Shown here: piece after piece, positions 5,418 to 56,476 of the stretch
How positions within the stretch are numbered: the stretch's first letter is position 1
Layout of the letters: every line of letters begins with the position of its first letter
DNA from: Serratia liquefaciens
GTDB taxonomy: Bacteria; Pseudomonadota; Gammaproteobacteria; Enterobacterales; Enterobacteriaceae
Direction: 5' to 3'
Assembly: GCF_027594825.1 (NCBI RefSeq)
Contig: NZ_CP088930.1
Span: 1,426,001-1,490,000 of the forward strand
DNA: 64,000 bases
The notes under the pieces: generated by a model
Database searches by the model: none
What the model saw: only the letters and a program-made list of their open reading frames with translations
Told to the model about the DNA's origin: nothing
Translations under genes and position numbers: made by a program

Positions 5418-5545
5418 TATACCCTATGGATTTCACGTTGCAGCTAGGCGCCCAGCTCACTCATCCCCAGGCGCTTACTTCAGTAAGTAACTGGGGTGAG
5501 TGAGTGCAGGTAACAACGCTGCAGCTTGAAATACGACGGGTATTA
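5418..5545. repeat. ERIC element between fepC and entF
   Basis: A palindromic intergenic element of about 127 bases. Its centre has the diagnostic ERIC inverted repeat, with CATCCCCAGGCGCTTACTT on one arm and AAGTAACTGGGGTGAG on the other. Terminal sequences are ATACCC and GGGTAT. A second copy lies at 52149-52273. The boundary falls on the entF stop codon (5543-5545). ERIC elements are known in enterobacteria, usually in transcribed spacers. Confidence 0.9.
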
Positions 5546-49832: not shown

Positions 49833-52073
49833 TTAGAATCGCACCTCCCCGCCGAAGATATAGGTTCGGCCGCGGGCGGTGTTGGTCGGTGAGAAGTCTC
49901 TAGACTGCGATGGCAGGGAATTCATCTTGTTCAACGCATCGGAATAGTCTTTGTCCATCAGGTTCTGCACGCTGAATTTCAACAGCAGATTACGGTTGAA
50001 CTGATAGGTGCTGTACAGATCGATAATCGTCGGGATATGCGGCGCAGGCTCTTTCAACAATTGCTCATTTTCGTCGACGTTCGAATCAGGTGAAAGACGT
50101 ACCGCTTTGCCGGTGTACTTTATCAGCCCGCCCAACGTCAGCTTTTCATCCAACAGACGCACCCCGCTGTCCAGCGTGAAATACATCTCCGGGAGTTCGG
50201 TGACATCCCCCGCGCCAAACACATTGCTGGCCTGATTGGTGGGTTGGCTGGTGTGCTCTTTGCTCAGAGAGAGTTTGGTGTAGGCAAAACCGGCGTCATA
50301 CATTGCCTCCACTTCCACCCCGCGTGTTCTGACCGGCTCATAAGCATTGCTGTACATGGTCATACTGACATTCACATCGGCGTTATCCCACTCTTCCTGC
50401 GTCGCCTGGGATCGGTTGCACTTCTGGCGATTGCTGCACACCATGTAACTCTGGCTGGAAATGTAATTTTTGATCTTTGATTCAAAATACACCGCCTTCA
50501 GTTGGAAGCTGTCCTGCTTGAACAGCAGGTCATGAGCATTGGCGTTGAAGCCGGCCTGGTAGGTTTCGGCGGTTTCGCCCTTCAGGAACGGGTTCATCGA
50601 CTGCCCGCCGCTGTTGGCGAAGAACACCTCCTGAATATTCGGCCCGCGCATCGACTTGCTGTAGCTGACAAACGGCTGCAACCATGGCGTCACCTGCGCC
50701 GACAACAGCACCGACGGATTAAAACCGTGCTCTTTCAAATTGATATTGCTGGCCCCCTGCGGGAAGCAGGCCACGCGATCATCACAGGCCGGTTTATAGC
50801 CGGAAATGTCATAGGAGCTGTAGTTCAGATCAAAGTTGCTCTGCCAGATGCCGTAGTTAAGCTGCAGCCCACTGTAAAGGCTGGCGATATTTTGTTTACC
50901 CGCGATCCCCACCGGAGAACTTTCGGCCTGGTTATCATCGGTCACCAGCCCGGAAGCGTGCTTCTTATATTCGTTACGAATCAGCTTGCCACCATAGCTG
51001 AAGGCAAAATCGACCTCCTGCAGGCTGAAACGGCTGGTGTTATTGACGTCCAGCGCGTCCGAGATATTTTTCGCCTTGCTGTCGCTAAACCCTGCCATAT
51101 TATCAGACATAAAATTCTGCTCACCCCGGCTGGTACTGGCTGTCAGGTTAAAATCAATCAGCTCGGAGAAAGGCGCATAGTGATATTTAATATAGAAGTC
51201 ATTACTGTCGATATGACGGCGGGTTATTTTATTCTGGTAGGTCCTGGCCGACAGTTCGATACTATTAAAAGCGTCTGGCTTAATATCGACTTTGAATAAC
51301 TGGGATTTAGGGTTCTGTCGGTAGGTTTTATCAACGTTGAATTCTTCGCTGTCAAAACCCGAACCGTTCTTGTAATTAGACGTGATGGAACTGCCGCTGA
51401 TGGCCGCCATTGCCCCCAGGCTGCCGCCTTCGCCAAAGGCGCTGGTTTTCCCGCCCACGGCAATCATGCCGCTGCGGCCGATGCCGTTATTGCCGACGGA
51501 AAATTTGGTGCGCACGCCAAAGGGATTATCCGAAAACACCACGTCATCCACACCCAGGGTGCGGAAGTTGGCGCTGCCTGCCAAAGCATTCACTCCGGCG
51601 GAGCCTGTTGCATTCCCACGCGCTACATCAACACCGACGATAAAATTGGGATCGATCAGTGCACCAAACTGGCTGGTGGGTAAACCGCCGTGTGCTGCAT
51701 CGCTCGGCGAACTGCCGTAGTAGTTCTGGGTAATGCCATCCACCATGGTATTAACCCGGCCAAAACCGCTCATGCCGCGAATATTGACGCTAACCGATCC
51801 CTGGCCCGGATCGATTTGGGTATAGGTGCCCGGCATGCTGCGCAAAATGCTGTCTACCGATTCGAGGTTCTTATTTTCCCCTCGTGAGCTGAAGGCACCG
51901 GGTTTTTCCAACGCCTCCTTTTCGCTACGGTCGCTTTCCGTCGCGGCAGAAACGTTCAACGGGCTAAACACCACTTTGCCGTTGCCATTGTCCGCCCCAT
52001 CCTGCGCAGCCGTCGCCGTCCCGATCAGCGCTATTCCCGCCCCGATCAGGCTTACCAGTAATTTAATTTTCAT
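49833..52073 (-). CDS. TonB-dependent haem/haemoprotein-type receptor
   Basis: A 746-residue outer-membrane receptor. The signal peptide ends near residue 22 (ATA|AQD). A TonB-box-like VVFSPLNVSA, the plug (SVNIRGMSGFGRVNTMVDG, close to HasR) and a barrel ending in FGGEVRF follow. A variant of the haem-receptor FRAP/NPNL pair is seen: SMRGPNIQEVFF then MNPFLKGETAETYQAGF. Cysteine pairs (CDDRVAC, CSNRQKC) suggest disulfide-bonded outer loops. TCTGGGGACCT precedes the ATG. It is last of four co-oriented genes with an oligopeptidase, a TonB paralogue and a ChaN lipoprotein. The ligand is unknown; haem or an iron protein is inferred. Confidence 0.85.
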   Translation of the reverse strand: MKIKLLVSLIGAGIALIGTATAAQDGADNGNGKVVFSPLNVSAATESDRSEKEALEKPGAFSSRGENKNLESVDSILRSMPGTYTQIDPGQGSVSVNIRGMSGFGRVNTMVDGITQNYYGSSPSDAAHGGLPTSQFGALIDPNFIVGVDVARGNATGSAGVNALAGSANFRTLGVDDVVFSDNPFGVRTKFSVGNNGIGRSGMIAVGGKTSAFGEGGSLGAMAAISGSSITSNYKNGSGFDSEEFNVDKTYRQNPKSQLFKVDIKPDAFNSIELSARTYQNKITRRHIDSNDFYIKYHYAPFSELIDFNLTASTSRGEQNFMSDNMAGFSDSKAKNISDALDVNNTSRFSLQEVDFAFSYGGKLIRNEYKKHASGLVTDDNQAESSPVGIAGKQNIASLYSGLQLNYGIWQSNFDLNYSSYDISGYKPACDDRVACFPQGASNINLKEHGFNPSVLLSAQVTPWLQPFVSYSKSMRGPNIQEVFFANSGGQSMNPFLKGETAETYQAGFNANAHDLLFKQDSFQLKAVYFESKIKNYISSQSYMVCSNRQKCNRSQATQEEWDNADVNVSMTMYSNAYEPVRTRGVEVEAMYDAGFAYTKLSLSKEHTSQPTNQASNVFGAGDVTELPEMYFTLDSGVRLLDEKLTLGGLIKYTGKAVRLSPDSNVDENEQLLKEPAPHIPTIIDLYSTYQFNRNLLLKFSVQNLMDKDYSDALNKMNSLPSQSRDFSPTNTARGRTYIFGGEVRF

Positions 52074-52148
52074 AGGTCCCCAGAAATAACCAAAAAGATT
52101 TTATGGCCGACAATGCCCAGCATAAAGCCCACCGAAATCGACGGTAAA

Positions 52149-52273
52149 TATACCCGTCATCTTTCAAGTTGCAGCGTTGTTACCTGCACTCGCTCACCCC
52201 AGTTACTTACTAAAGTAAGCGCCTGGGGATGAGCGAGCTGGCCGCCTAGCTGCAATTTAAAAGCTATAGGGTA
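52149..52273. repeat. ERIC element between the oligopeptidase and receptor genes
   Basis: About 125 bases starting TATACCCGTCAT and ending TATAGGGTA, with the ERIC core CACCCCAGTTACTTAC/GTAAGCGCCTGGGGATGAG. It lies 76 bases upstream of the receptor start, so it would be part of any message running from the upstream genes. A second copy is at 5418-5545. Confidence 0.9.
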
Positions 52274-52329
52274 TTTATTTTTTATTATTTTAATAAGCTG
52301 CCGGGTTTATTGCCCGGCGGCCAGAAGGG

Positions 52330-54462
52330 TTATTTGCGCGTTTTCTGATCCACCGCCAAAATAAAGCTGTATTCCAGGGCGCTATTTTCCAGCCGCGTCA
52401 GACGGCCCGATTTGCCGCCGTGCCCGGCCGTCATATCGGTGGCCAGCAGCAGCAGTGAATCCCCCTGTTTAAAGCGACGCAGTTTGGCCACCCATTTTGC
52501 CGGTTCCCAATATTGCACCTGCGAATCATACAGGCCGCTGGTCACCAACAGGTTCGGGTACGCCTGCTTGCGCACGTTGTCATAGGGGCTATAAGACTTC
52601 ATCAGCGCATAGGCTTCTGGTTGATTAGGGTTGCCCCACTCTTCATATTCCCCGACGGTCAGTGGAATGCTGTCGTCAAGCATGGTGGTCAAAACATCCA
52701 CAAAAGGCACCTGCGCCACCACCGCGTTATACAGCTGCGGCGCCTGATTGATCACCGCGCCCATCAACAACCCCCCGGCGCTGCCGCCCATGGCGTAGAT
52801 ACGCCCCGGTTGGCCGTACCCCTGTTTTATCAGTGCCTGGGTGGCATCGATAAAGTCACTGAAGGTGTTGGGTTTATGGCTCAGTTTTCCCTGTTGATAC
52901 CAGTTCTGCCCCAGCTCACCGCCGCCACGCACGTGGATCAGCGCATAAACAAAACCGCGATCCAGTAAACTGATGCGGTTGGCGCTGAAGGCCGGATCCA
53001 TACTCATGCCGTAAGCACCATAGCCGTACACCAGCAGCGGACTGTGTCCCGGTTTGAACATCGCACGGTTGTAGACCAGCGAGACTGGCACCTTCACACC
53101 GTCACGCGCGCTGATCCATACCCGTTCACTGTGGTACTGGCTGGGATCAACCCCTTTAACTTCCTGCTGTTTCAACAGGGTACGAGTGCCTTTATCAAGA
53201 TCCCATTCGTAGGTGCTGGTCGGCGTGGTCATCGCCGAATAGCCGTAGCGCAGGTGTTGATTGTCCGGATCGGGGTTATAGCCCAGCCAGGCCATGTAGC
53301 TGGCGTCATCGAACGGAATGCTGCGCTGGGTTTTGCCGTCCCAACTGATTTGCCGTAGCTGCACCAGGCCGTCGCCGCGCTCTTTGACCACCAGCCAGTC
53401 GCGGAACAGGGTGAAGCCTTCGACCTCGCGTTTTTCCTGCGGCGCAATCAACGTCTGCCACGGTTTATCCAGCGCTGCGGTGTGATACAGACCAAAATGC
53501 GGGCTTTGGTGATTGGAGCGCAAATAGAACTCGCCGCGATAATGGTCGAGGTAATATTCATGGCCGTTCTTGCGAGCGGCAAACAGCACCGGCGCTTTCA
53601 GCGGTTGGTTGGCATCGATCAGCCGCGCCTCAGAGGTAGTGTTGCCGCTGACGGTAATAATGACGTAGTCGCGGGAGGAGGAATGGGCCAGGCTCAGATA
53701 AAACGCCGCGTCATTTTCCTGATACACCAGTTTATCGTCCGCGACCGGCGTGCCGAACTGATGGCGATAAACCTGATACGGCAACAGGGTTTGCGGATGG
53801 TTGCGAATATAAAACAGCGTCTTGCCATCGTTGGCCCACACCATGTCGCCAGAGGTATTTTCAATCACTTCCGGTGCCCATTGCTCGCTGTCGACATTAC
53901 GCAACGAAATACGGTACTGCCTGCGCCCCTGGAAATCCTCGGCGATCGCCATACGCTGATTGTCCTGGCTGATCTCCAGGCCGCCGACGCGGTAGTAAGC
54001 CTGCCCTGCCGCGCGCTGGTTGGCATCCAGCAAGGTTTGCCATGGTGCATCGGCGGTAAGAGCCTGACGCTGGTACAAAGCAAAATCCTTGCCCACCGCA
54101 TAGCTTTCCTGATAGCGGTAGCCGTTCAGTTGATAAGGCACCGAGCGATCTTCCGGGCTCATGCGGCCCAGCATTTCCTGGTACAGCGTATCGCGCAGTT
54201 TTTTGTACGGCTGCATCATCTGTTCGGTGTAATGGTTTTCCGCCGTCAAATAATCCAGCATCTTTTTATTCTGGCGGCTGTCGTCGCGTAGCCAATAGTA
54301 ATCATCCATCCGGGTTTCACCCTGGGCGGTCAATTTTTTCGGGATGATTTCCGCACTGGGAGCCTGCGGTGCCGCCTGAACGGCCTGGCCCATTAAGCTT
54401 AATGAAATCACGACAGAGGTTGCCGCACGCCAACAACGGCCCGGCAAAAGTGGATATTTCAT
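52330..54462 (-). CDS. Exported S9A oligopeptidase (oligopeptidase B-like)
   Basis: A 710-residue prolyl-oligopeptidase-family serine peptidase. Unlike the usual cytosolic PtrB it has a signal peptide ending near residue 30 (AVQA|APQ), so it should act in the periplasm. The blade propeller (about 60-450) is followed by the hydrolase domain, with nucleophile GGSAGG near residue 560 and histidine region TAGHGGKSG near 685. RDDSRQNK resembles PtrB. GTGAGGGACT precedes the ATG. It lies between a TonB paralogue and a haem-type receptor, suggesting it processes an imported ligand. Confidence 0.87.
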   Translation of the reverse strand: MKYPLLPGRCWRAATSVVISLSLMGQAVQAAPQAPSAEIIPKKLTAQGETRMDDYYWLRDDSRQNKKMLDYLTAENHYTEQMMQPYKKLRDTLYQEMLGRMSPEDRSVPYQLNGYRYQESYAVGKDFALYQRQALTADAPWQTLLDANQRAAGQAYYRVGGLEISQDNQRMAIAEDFQGRRQYRISLRNVDSEQWAPEVIENTSGDMVWANDGKTLFYIRNHPQTLLPYQVYRHQFGTPVADDKLVYQENDAAFYLSLAHSSSRDYVIITVSGNTTSEARLIDANQPLKAPVLFAARKNGHEYYLDHYRGEFYLRSNHQSPHFGLYHTAALDKPWQTLIAPQEKREVEGFTLFRDWLVVKERGDGLVQLRQISWDGKTQRSIPFDDASYMAWLGYNPDPDNQHLRYGYSAMTTPTSTYEWDLDKGTRTLLKQQEVKGVDPSQYHSERVWISARDGVKVPVSLVYNRAMFKPGHSPLLVYGYGAYGMSMDPAFSANRISLLDRGFVYALIHVRGGGELGQNWYQQGKLSHKPNTFSDFIDATQALIKQGYGQPGRIYAMGGSAGGLLMGAVINQAPQLYNAVVAQVPFVDVLTTMLDDSIPLTVGEYEEWGNPNQPEAYALMKSYSPYDNVRKQAYPNLLVTSGLYDSQVQYWEPAKWVAKLRRFKQGDSLLLLATDMTAGHGGKSGRLTRLENSALEYSFILAVDQKTRK

Positions 54463-54486
54463 AGTCCCTCACGATGGTTTTACATC

Positions 54487-54528
54487 GGCAACGCCTTCTT
54501 TTGTTTCAGCAAACAAAAGGCCGCTGCC
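54487..54528. repeat. Intercistronic hairpin between the tonB-like and oligopeptidase genes
   Basis: CTTTTGTTT-CAGC-AAACAAAAG is a perfect nine-pair stem, extended outward by GGCAACG/CGCTGCC with one mismatch. It fills most of the 77-base gap. It may mark processing or partial termination. Confidence 0.6.
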
Positions 54529-54539
54529 GTCGGCATAAA

Positions 54540-55340
54540 CTATTGGACGGCGTTGAACGCCGCCAGATTAAAATCAATCGGCATCGTCACCCGAACCTTG
54601 TCCTGCTGAAGCATCTCAACCGGTGGCTGCGGCAAGGGCTGCGCCCGAGTCACCACCGACAGCGCCTCCCGATCCAGCGAGGCGGTGCCTGATGACGCCT
54701 GCAATCTCAAATCAGACACCCGCCCCAGCGCATCCACCGTGAAGGTCACCTGCGGCATGCCGCTACGGCGACGGCGCTGCGCATCTGGCGGATAACGCTT
54801 GATGCGATTCAACTGCCCCTTTACCTGGCTTTCCCACGACAGCTTGGCCTGCAGCTGACTGGCAGAATCGCTGCTCAGCGGCGCCGCCGCCTGCTGGGCA
54901 ATATTCAACGCTTTCGGTGCGGCGGCGCTGGAAGCGGCGGCACGTTTAGTCTCTTTCGCCTGCTCCTCCGGCTTTGGCTGGGCTTTCTGCGGCGGTCGCC
55001 GCTCAGTTCGCTTTTTTTCAGCCACGGCAATCTTGGTGTTTTCAGCCCGCGCCAACTTCGGCAAATCGGGTTGTTCCTGCTGTTCGGCCGGCTGTGCCGC
55101 GGAGGATTGCGCCTGCTGTATACCTAAGGGTAAGGGTTTGGGGCTTTCCGGCGCTTCAATCTGCGCGGCCCAGCTCATCATCACCGCCGGAGGCGGCAAT
55201 GACATCGGCGGCAGCGACCGTGGCGGCCAGTAAAACAACAGCACCAGCGCCACATGTGCCGCGATAGCGCACAAAAAACCGCGCGCCCAGCTCGGTTGCG
55301 GCATCGCAGGGGCCGAAAAAGAGAAAGACTGACTTAGCAT
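54540..55340 (-). CDS. TonB-family energy transducer (paralogue)
   Basis: A 266-residue TonB-like protein. One N-terminal membrane segment (LCAIAAHVALVLLFYW, near residues 23-38) is followed by a Pro/Glu/Lys-rich spacer (about 60-150) and a TonB C-terminal domain (about 180-262) with YPPDAQRRRRSGMPQVTF and SSGTASLDREALSVV. A dedicated TonB for the nearby receptor is the natural reading, comparable in kind to HasB or FusB. A perfect Fur box lies 49 bases upstream. No exbB or exbD is in the window. No clear ribosome site was found at the chosen start. Confidence 0.85.
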   Translation of the reverse strand: MLSQSFSFSAPAMPQPSWARGFLCAIAAHVALVLLFYWPPRSLPPMSLPPPAVMMSWAAQIEAPESPKPLPLGIQQAQSSAAQPAEQQEQPDLPKLARAENTKIAVAEKKRTERRPPQKAQPKPEEQAKETKRAAASSAAAPKALNIAQQAAAPLSSDSASQLQAKLSWESQVKGQLNRIKRYPPDAQRRRRSGMPQVTFTVDALGRVSDLRLQASSGTASLDREALSVVTRAQPLPQPPVEMLQQDKVRVTMPIDFNLAAFNAVQ

Positions 55341-55388
55341 AGGGACATTAGATTACTTAATTGCGAATGATTGCAGATCACATTTGCT

Positions 55389-55401
55389 AATGATAATCAT
55401 T
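55389..55401. promoter_or_regulatory. Fur box upstream of the tonB-like gene
   Basis: AATGAT-A-ATCATT is a perfect 6-1-6 inverted repeat matching the Fur core, in an AT-rich stretch 49 bases before the start. Iron-repressed expression of the tonB-like gene and those after it is expected. Confidence 0.8.
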
Positions 55402-55442
55402 TGTAATTATTATTAACAGCCCTTTTCACTGCCTTAACACAT

Positions 55443-56282
55443 TCATTTTACTGCCGGGGTGATCCACAGGTAATCGGCCACCTGTTTATCGACCTGCACA
55501 CCGGGTTCCGCCAGCATCAGTACCGTTGGCAACGCAGCCGGTTGCAAATCCTGCACGTGCAGTGGCACTCCTACGGATTTGGCTGCATGGTAGCCACCGG
55601 CAATCAACAGCGCGGGAGTGGGCGCGGCCAGCAAGCGTTCAGCCATGCGTCGGTCGCGCTGCTGTTGGATCGCCAGCATCGCATGCAATTGCTGAGGTTC
55701 AATCTTGCCGCCGTGCGAAGTGCGGATGGTTTCTTCCAGCGCTTTCTGCACCACCGGACGCACCGACAGCTGGCCCTGCGGGAAACTTGGCTGCTGATAA
55801 AAAGCCATGATTTCATCGCGATCCAGGTTAGCCGACCACAGCGGATAGGGTGCACGCATCGCCGCCATGACCACATCGCCGTACAGTGACCATTTCCACC
55901 CCGACTGCCAGCCGATCAACTCCGCTACGCGTCCGTCACGAACGCTGGGCTCCCCCTGCAGCCACTGTTTCACCTGATTAACTTTGTCTTGCTGATTCGG
56001 GTTAATCATTTCCATCAGCACGCTGCCCTGGGGACGCTGCTGTGGCAGGTTTTGCACCAGCCACAGTTCAATCTGATGGTGATAGGGGTTATCGTGTTTT
56101 TCGCCGACGATGACCCGGGGTTGAGCGGCCAAACGGGCCAGAAGCTGGTCAGGTGACAGGCTTTCTCCACTGCGTAAATCCGTAATTTTGCCCAAACTAT
56201 CAAGGGTATTTTTTGGCGAGGAAACCGGGGTTTGGCTACAGGCGCCGAGCGCCAGCGCGGCCAATAAAATCAAAAGTCTCAT
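55443..56282 (-). CDS. ChaN-family iron-regulated haem-binding lipoprotein
   Basis: A 279-residue lipoprotein with lipobox LGAC (residues 12-15). VIVGEKHDNPYHH near residue 58, MEMINPNQQ and the C-terminal PALLIAGGYHAAKSVGVP match the ChaN/PhuW family. Campylobacter ChaN binds two haems at a dimer interface and is encoded next to a TonB-dependent receptor and tonB genes. Here it heads the co-oriented iron module under a perfect Fur box. Confidence 0.85.
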   Translation of the reverse strand: MRLLILLAALALGACSQTPVSSPKNTLDSLGKITDLRSGESLSPDQLLARLAAQPRVIVGEKHDNPYHHQIELWLVQNLPQQRPQGSVLMEMINPNQQDKVNQVKQWLQGEPSVRDGRVAELIGWQSGWKWSLYGDVVMAAMRAPYPLWSANLDRDEIMAFYQQPSFPQGQLSVRPVVQKALEETIRTSHGGKIEPQQLHAMLAIQQQRDRRMAERLLAAPTPALLIAGGYHAAKSVGVPLHVQDLQPAALPTVLMLAEPGVQVDKQVADYLWITPAVK

Positions 56283-56317
56283 GATGCTGCCCTGTCATAA
56301 AAAGTGGCGACATTATA

Positions 56318-56330
56318 GATAATAATTATC
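56318..56330. promoter_or_regulatory. Fur box upstream of chaN
   Basis: GATAAT-A-ATTATC is a perfect match to the 6-1-6 Fur consensus, extended by ATTTGC, 36 bases before the chaN start. It is the strongest Fur site in the window. Confidence 0.88.
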
Positions 56331-56476
56331 ATTTGCATATAGAGAACCCCCTTTCCTGCGATATCGATAACTATTTTTTTACTTTAGGATCCCTGAACGC
56401 GCATTGATTTCATGAGGTATTGCGGGTATAACCAATAGCCATTTAGCAGCTTAGACGTCTATACGGGTAAAATACC

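Follow-up and report, generated by a model that had tools for sequence, protein, structure and literature searches.

A 64,000-nucleotide stretch of the Serratia liquefaciens genome (contig NZ_CP088930.1, positions 1,426,001 to 1,490,000; hereafter the window), lying on a single contig of 5.35 Mb, contains a cluster of four genes encoding a ChaN-family lipoprotein, a TonB-like energy transducer, an exported oligopeptidase-B-type (OpB) peptidase of family S9A and a TonB-dependent receptor, which we consider here as a candidate haem-acquisition module controlled by Fur (Table 1). The four open reading frames lie exactly where a preliminary description of the window had placed them, all on the minus strand, and all four proteins score over the curated Pfam cut-offs. 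Both perfect Fur-type palindromes of that description were located as well, one upstream of chaN and one upstream of the tonB-like gene (hereafter tonB). The genome holds one match to PF04187 and six to TonB_C, the cluster's own TonB included.

Table 1. Features of the chaN-tonB-peptidase-receptor cluster (window coordinates).
Feature	Position	Strand	Basis or content
TonB-dependent receptor, TdfH/HasR-like	49833-52073	minus	Open reading frame, 746 aa; PF07715 and PF00593
Peptidase-receptor intergenic stretch	52074-52329		Holds palindromic repeat 52201-52224; no Fur-type box found
Exported OpB-type S9A peptidase	52330-54462	minus	Open reading frame, 710 aa; PF02897 and PF00326
TonB-like energy transducer	54540-55340	minus	Open reading frame, 266 aa; PF03544
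Fur-type palindrome AATGATAATCATT, upstream of tonB-like gene	55389-55401		Pattern scan
ChaN-family lipoprotein	55443-56282	minus	Open reading frame, 279 aa; PF04187
Fur-type palindrome GATAATAATTATC, upstream of chaN	56318-56330		Pattern scan

Related loci were collected by scanning genome contigs with the receptor alignment, and the best 80 of 189 relatives were taken as the named-genome set, which is therefore biased to close relatives and is rich in Xenorhabdus (17), Janthinobacterium (15) and Photorhabdus (11). Neighbours were counted when matched by tblastn (E ≤ 1e-5) on the same strand and no more than 6.5 kb from the receptor. The tonB gene is present beside the receptor gene in all 80 loci, and chaN in 76 of them, which include every one of the 75 that have 6.5 kb or more of upstream sequence; the four misses (L029, L068, L073 and L074) are all close to contig ends. 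The peptidase gene stands beside the receptor gene, across a gap of 56-480 bp, in 58 of the 80 loci, so that this neighbourhood is kept in many relatives, as the preliminary description would require; of the 22 misses, L029 is not judgeable. Peptidase-bearing loci come from Yersiniaceae, Hafniaceae, Enterobacteriaceae, Erwiniaceae, Morganellaceae, Chromobacteriaceae and Chitinibacteraceae, with one record labelled Comamonadaceae. The order chaN-tonB-peptidase-receptor is complete in seven named families, and is found in Proteus mirabilis too; Chromobacterium has tonB-peptidase-receptor on contigs that stop short of chaN. The flanks are maeB upstream and yaiI and hemF downstream in Serratia and Yersinia nurmii, and maeB with genes that we take to be xseA-guaB-guaA in Photorhabdus, Xenorhabdus and Providencia, and other hosts carry the cluster at other sites. 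Judged by sequence, the four genes are a conserved unit spanning several families.

The cluster also varies in content. Of the 80 named loci, 21 have an exbD match. Janthinobacterium, Massilia and Pseudoduganella lack the peptidase and carry exbB-exbD between chaN and tonB; exbD was matched in 16 of the 17 loci from these genera, all except L029 at its contig end, and the exbB-exbD pair of Iodobacter was run through Pfam. In the Hafnia locus L018, chaN is immediately preceded by exbB- and exbD-like genes, at a position where the other enterobacterial loci have no exbD match. In all five peptidase-less Enterobacteriaceae loci of the named set (L017, L072, L076, L078 and L083), and in L114 (7504-8646), the gene directly after that of the receptor encodes a YncE-like seven-bladed propeller, and none of the 58 peptidase-bearing loci has such a gene; the propeller protein matches the YncE model with a score under its cut-off. 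S9A enzymes have a propeller domain too, and the YncE-like propeller and the peptidase may replace each other. In Serratia loci L012 and L179 (8254-10515), the receptor at the same site is 66-68% identical and the peptidase 80-86%; by these identities, Serratia holds two receptor types at this site.

Wider samples gave lower bounds, since few first-look candidates were scored per genome (five, up to seven, or two by search). The receptor (E ≤ 1e-120) turned up in at least eight of 197 genomes of the same order, with the peptidase adjoining in two (G000 and G177). Five of the eight belong to a small-genome family of this order, designated f9 and probably Pasteurellaceae; G054, among these five, has a more distant S9A peptidase adjoining, below the search cut-off. 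A sample of 369 genomes from across the class had the receptor (E ≤ 1e-70) in at least two. Locus L150, from another family of the class, has a distant receptor (30%) with chaN- and tonB-like matches alongside. Within 140 f9 genomes the receptor (E ≤ 1e-110) occurs in at least 30 and the peptidase (E ≤ 1e-80) in at least seven, and all seven peptidases adjoin the receptor, with 24-164 bp between match ends. The genome overlap has a hypergeometric probability of 1.1e-5, for the overlap alone and with kinship ignored; the seven peptidase genomes are not seven independent events, because they are drawn from three genera. At locus L134 of one f9 genome, the receptor and peptidase genes are each broken into two pieces, and intact relatives exist.

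The preliminary description had assigned the window's enzyme to the oligopeptidase B type and given it a signal peptide, and both assignments are borne out. Its N-terminus, by eye and by hydrophobicity, consists of a start codon, a basic stretch and a hydrophobic stretch followed by ...GQAVQA-AP. A hydrophobic stretch is present at the N-terminus of all 58 named-locus peptidases and, with a start codon, of seven of seven f9 peptidases; the hydrophobicity score alone is not diagnostic, being high also upstream of the likely start in several housekeeping OpBs. The same genome encodes a second OpB (5008195-5010213), presumably the housekeeping PtrB, which is 58-59% identical to the locus peptidase; its start lies some 25 residues ahead of the YYWLRD motif that both proteins share, and it has no export signal. 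A third S9 match is distant (25% identity). The locus peptidase is thus predicted to be exported, not cytosolic. The OpB equivalog model gives it 952 bits, below the cut-off of 1313. The Ser/Asp/His triad and the glutamate of the P1 pocket are kept in 59 of 59 and 6 of 6 sequences (65 in total; the broken L134 copy was excluded by length), the glutamate being paired by spacing with published Glu603/Trp607. This glutamate sets P1 specificity in OpB, which cleaves after Arg or Lys in short peptides with a size limit of about 30 residues (PMC12114661). Given the size limit and the kept glutamate, the likely substrate is an Arg/Lys-bearing peptide or an unfolded piece.

The locus peptidases form a lineage of their own. 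In a tree of 48 rows, from which redundant rows and the very long row L003 were left out and to which five OpBs of peptidase-less named genomes were added, 26 locus peptidases are separated from 22 other OpBs by a single branch (100/100), and the five added OpBs fall outside the locus clade; the long f9 and Pantoea branches were joined and flagged by the program, so the internal order is unsure. In a first tree (62 rows, L003 included), the branch around the non-locus OpBs had 86/100 and the non-f9 locus peptidase label needed three changes. Independent recruitment of the f9 peptidase, which is 37% identical, was considered and rejected, since the second tree sets the f9 copy on the locus side. 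Across 29 loci, receptor and peptidase distances are correlated with r = 0.885 (largest of 999 permutations, 0.312), a value to which host kinship adds. In 13 genomes of peptidase-less named loci, no OpB match was found beside the receptor, the matches all being to other OpBs away from it.

Exported-looking OpB-type peptidases with no receptor match nearby were seen in an Aeromonas-like family, f25 (L120-L122; three stretches of 14 kb each), and in Aeromonas caviae (L181); the f25 rows placed in the tree sit in the non-locus clade. Since exported OpBs away from such receptors exist, the locus enzyme might be a peptide-feeding peptidase that simply shares an iron-controlled operon, which we regard as quite improbable in view of its neighbourhood, its separate clade and the matched receptor and peptidase distances. 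The OpB preference for short peptides cut after Arg or Lys (PMC12114661) would also suit an enzyme that destroys cationic peptides, such as bacteriocins or antimicrobial peptides, riding through the receptor. The stronger divergence of receptors than of peptidases at the Serratia site points in the same direction, and several host genera are insect-associated. Such protection would need no lock-step with this single receptor, however, and none of the 22 outside OpBs placed in the tree, from which most OpB matches of the 197 genomes were left out, falls in the locus clade; with the adjacency of all seven f9 peptidases found, this makes a protective role unlikely.

The closest solved match to the receptor, by sequence and fold, is the Neisseria gonorrhoeae receptor TdfH (9oaa; fold E 3e-56 and TM score of 0.79 with the predicted model; 373 bits with the A1 profile), followed by HasR, ChuA, PhuR and ShuA. 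The model used was built from a 57-row alignment and has a mean predicted local distance difference test (pLDDT) score of 77; an earlier 21-row model was poor (mean pLDDT 54). The label of haem-type receptor given in the preliminary description is fair as a family reading and is not secure by NCBIfam, in which the best model, TIGR01785, scores 254 bits, under its cut-off of 317. A plug-loop histidine is present in all 57 aligned receptors (54 by pattern, three by eye) and, by eye, in 22 of 23 f9 receptors, the other one being incompletely displayed; HasR has one and TdfH none. No histidine column reaches 80% in the 57-row alignment, and four cysteine columns do: 430 and 436 (57 rows each), 546 (53) and 552 (51).

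The haem assignment gains independent support from relatives, because their clusters include a haem ATP-binding cassette (ABC) transporter. Haem-type permease and ATPase genes lie near the receptor gene in 13 of 23 f9 loci, 12 of them with a matched binding protein, and chaN lies upstream of the receptor gene on the same strand, adjoining or with cluster genes between, in all 23 f9 loci read. The fullest order (L135, L136 and L138) is chaN-peptidase-receptor-lipoprotein-exbB-exbD-tonB-binding protein-permease-ATPase. Compared with solved structures, the binding protein of L118 matches HmuT first (E 2e-83), and that of L117 matches HutB first (E 4e-43) and then Pseudomonas and Shigella haem-binding proteins (2r79 and 2r7a, which we take to be PhuT and ShuT). 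The two f9 lipoproteins compared with profile libraries match known families weakly, that of L115 a Slam-dependent lipoprotein model under its cut-off and that of L117 FHBP_C and TbpB_B_D barely over theirs; a Slam gene is present in four of 23 f9 loci. In the window's genome, two HmuT-like haem-binding proteins, 50% and 46% identical to the L118 query, are encoded elsewhere. This transporter link speaks for haem more strongly than any other evidence here, and it was seen in relatives rather than in the window. Haem is the best-supported cargo because relatives add exbBD, Slam-type lipoproteins and this transporter.

These data bear on two other cargoes. Zinc piracy in the style of TdfH/CbpA would be in keeping with TdfH as the top match by structure and sequence, and similarity once wrongly gave TdfH a haem function (PMC3814407); with Fur-type boxes, ChaN, the haem ABC link and a plug histidine absent from TdfH on the other side, we consider it extremely improbable. 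The peptidase could alternatively open a Lys/Arg-bearing peptide siderophore by hydrolysis, presumably as the chrysobactin oligopeptidase CbsH does. The gene name and product of CbsH provide the precedent (PMC4079955), against which stand a receptor of the haem/TdfH kind and the haem ABC transporter of relatives, and we judge this role very unlikely. Both readings are set aside because of the haem ABC link and the kind of receptor.

Iron control was assessed in the window and in the relatives. GATAATAATTATC is the sole match with up to one mismatch across the 64 kb (0.02 expected), and AATGATAATCATT, perfect upstream of tonB, has three matches with up to one mismatch across the window (0.06 expected); the spacing from palindrome to start codon is 35 bases for chaN and 48 bases for tonB. 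No match to GATAATNATTATC with up to three mismatches was found in the gaps upstream of the peptidase and receptor genes. In relatives, about 200 bp upstream of each gene were scored for the best match to a 19-base sequence, which we take to be the Fur consensus, with Markov controls. Upstream of chaN, at least 14 of 19 bases match in 50 of 76 loci (control 0.9%) and at least 13 in 70 of 76 (control 6%); at least 14 match upstream of tonB in 21 of 77 loci (control 1.4%) and upstream of the receptor gene in 9 of 80 (control 1.6%). On these patterns, iron control is well supported at chaN and partly supported at tonB. Because Fur boxes stand upstream of chaN and tonB only, we infer that the peptidase and receptor genes would come under iron control through shared transcription or read-through.

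The ChaN alignment comprises 107 fetched rows, at least five of them present twice, and that of the window. The lipobox Cys15 is found in 98% of the 108 rows, and GExH 60-63, G229xxH232, E91, W125, W129, W131, Y134, N152, H190 and D210 are invariant in all of them, the invariant set including several Trp, Tyr, Gln and Asn residues; the window's ChaN has Tyr231 of the GxYH motif. Pfam labels PF04187 'Haem-binding uptake, Tiki superfamily, ChaN'.

We hold it to be an evenly balanced proposition that the cluster is a module for haem acquisition under Fur control, to which a periplasmic OpB-type peptidase is dedicated. In such a module, Fur would leave the promoters upstream of chaN and tonB in iron shortage, and the peptidase and receptor genes would be transcribed from the same promoters. 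A receptor of the TdfH/Hup/HasR kind would take haem at the cell surface from a haemoprotein or haem-peptide, driven by the cluster's own TonB. In the periplasm, the exported peptidase probably cuts a peptide entering with the haem, after basic residues, cargo and substrate both being putative. The lipoprotein ChaN might then take up the haem and hand it over to a haem ABC transporter, candidates for which are encoded elsewhere in this genome and inside the cluster in some relatives; the order of these steps is our proposal.

Several observations weigh against this reading. Among solved structures, the receptor is closest to TdfH, which is a calprotectin/zinc receptor. With the FRAP and NPNL motifs and His128 and His461 placed at what we take to be their positions, the barrel histidine between FRAP/NPNL-type motifs is lacking in 54 of the 57 receptors, one having it and two being unmatched. 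These histidines and motifs are features of haem receptors, and HmbR and HemR capture haem by a two-histidine scheme (PMC6449446). Without the barrel histidine, haem capture, if real, would therefore not follow the scheme of HmbR and HemR. When the 80 named loci were searched with a single f9 binding protein as query, no haem ABC binding protein was found close to the receptor. No Fur-like site with at least 13 of 19 bases was found upstream of the peptidase gene in any of 58 loci. Of the 79 named loci that have 2.6 kb or more of upstream sequence, 21 lack the peptidase, and no peptidase was found in 23 of the 30 f9 genomes that carry the receptor; the receptor can therefore dispense with it. 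The limit of about 30 residues puts a whole haemoprotein beyond digestion by an OpB. In ChaN, two GxxH motifs are invariant, but 22 of 23 f9 loci have another residue in place of the GxYH tyrosine.

The last two points favour a different division of labour, in which ChaN would be a metal-dependent Tiki hydrolase making the first cuts in an imported protein, whose short pieces the peptidase would then degrade. Two GxxH motifs make up the active site of Tiki enzymes, and two-step digestion would bypass the OpB size limit; the invariance of these motifs, E91 and other residues, the replaced tyrosine and the placement of PF04187 under the Tiki superfamily would all agree with it. On the other side, Campylobacter jejuni ChaN reportedly binds haem, we know of no hydrolase activity of ChaN, and chaN also occurs in loci without the peptidase, so we give two-step digestion a low probability. 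We give the same low probability to a fuller version, in which the receptor and its TonB would draw a peptide or a small unfolded protein that carries haem into the periplasm, ChaN would act as hydrolase and haem acceptor and the peptidase would degrade the fragments; if real, it would be a second Fus-like system, one that arose independently, serves haem and employs unrelated enzymes. We regard haem binding as the likely main role of ChaN, with hydrolase activity possible.

Elsewhere in the window, the palindromic repeat AGTTACTTACTnnAGTAAG of the peptidase-receptor gap recurs at 5469-5492 (0.01 chance matches expected). A scan of that gap for inverted repeats found none, and promoter and terminator scans gave matches no commoner than in shuffled sequence.

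No description of this gene set was found in the titles and abstracts of the searched literature, much literature being outside its coverage; the available portion of a Yersinia pseudotuberculosis plasma study lists ptrB and iron genes and has nothing on this locus. Receptor clusters with ChaN, and a receptor with a periplasmic protease (Fus), are known already; the literature searches turned up no exported enzyme of the OpB type that is linked to a receptor of the haem type. Nutritional protein import was called unprecedented for Fus (PMC7593965). A peptidase lineage is bound to one kind of receptor in several families, which suggests that peptide is attached to some sources of haem or iron on their arrival, a step outside the usual picture of haem uptake. 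The locus also offers a way to test the role of ChaN, and Serratia and Photorhabdus give access to it by genetics.

Among known systems, TdfH/CbpA (NMB1497 in N. meningitidis) is nearest to the receptor by fold and sequence, and some Serratia quinivorans orthologues carry NCBI names after NMB1497. It binds calprotectin for zinc uptake, and Haemophilus influenzae Hup, about 53% identical to CbpA (PMC3814407), takes haem from haemoglobin (PMC2627913); Hup is likened to the receptor here through CbpA and its published description only. TdfH has 901 residues and no plug histidine, whereas the receptor here has 746 and a plug histidine, and cbpA is under Zur, whereas the cluster here has Fur-type boxes, ChaN, TonB and a peptidase. 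HasR of Serratia marcescens, the second fold match, has the plug-loop histidine in common with the receptor, and HasB is the HasR system's own TonB-like protein (PMC6449446), which the cluster here also has. Unlike HasR/HasB, the cluster has no barrel histidine in its receptor and has ChaN and an S9 peptidase in addition. In C. jejuni, ChaN is paired with the receptor CtuA, as in the betaproteobacterial and f9 versions, a likeness of gene content. The Campylobacter parallel drawn in the preliminary description is strengthened by the order chaN-exbB-exbD-tonB-receptor in relatives, C. jejuni chaN presumably also sitting with exbB-exbD-tonB; we know of no peptidase there. The ligand of CtuA is lactoferrin or transferrin (PMC6083913). 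In the hemophilin system HphA-HphR-HsmA(Slam)-TonB of Acinetobacter (PMC8560813), HphR being likened by description, the closest correspondence is with four of 23 f9 loci, in which Slam, Slam-type lipoprotein, TonB and receptor genes occur together; f9 Slam and L117 lipoprotein queries matched near the receptor in none of the 80 named loci. Compared with PtrB, which is 58-59% identical and has the triad and P1 glutamate in common, the locus peptidase is exported by prediction and belongs to a separate clade. The Pectobacterium cluster FusA-FusB-FusC-FusD likewise unites a receptor, its own TonB-like protein and a periplasmic peptidase, and FusC is an M16 enzyme with a whole-protein substrate (PMC7593965), whereas the S9A enzyme here has a peptide-size limit; the Fus parallel of the preliminary description thus holds in its logic and parts at the peptidase, which is S9 and not M16.

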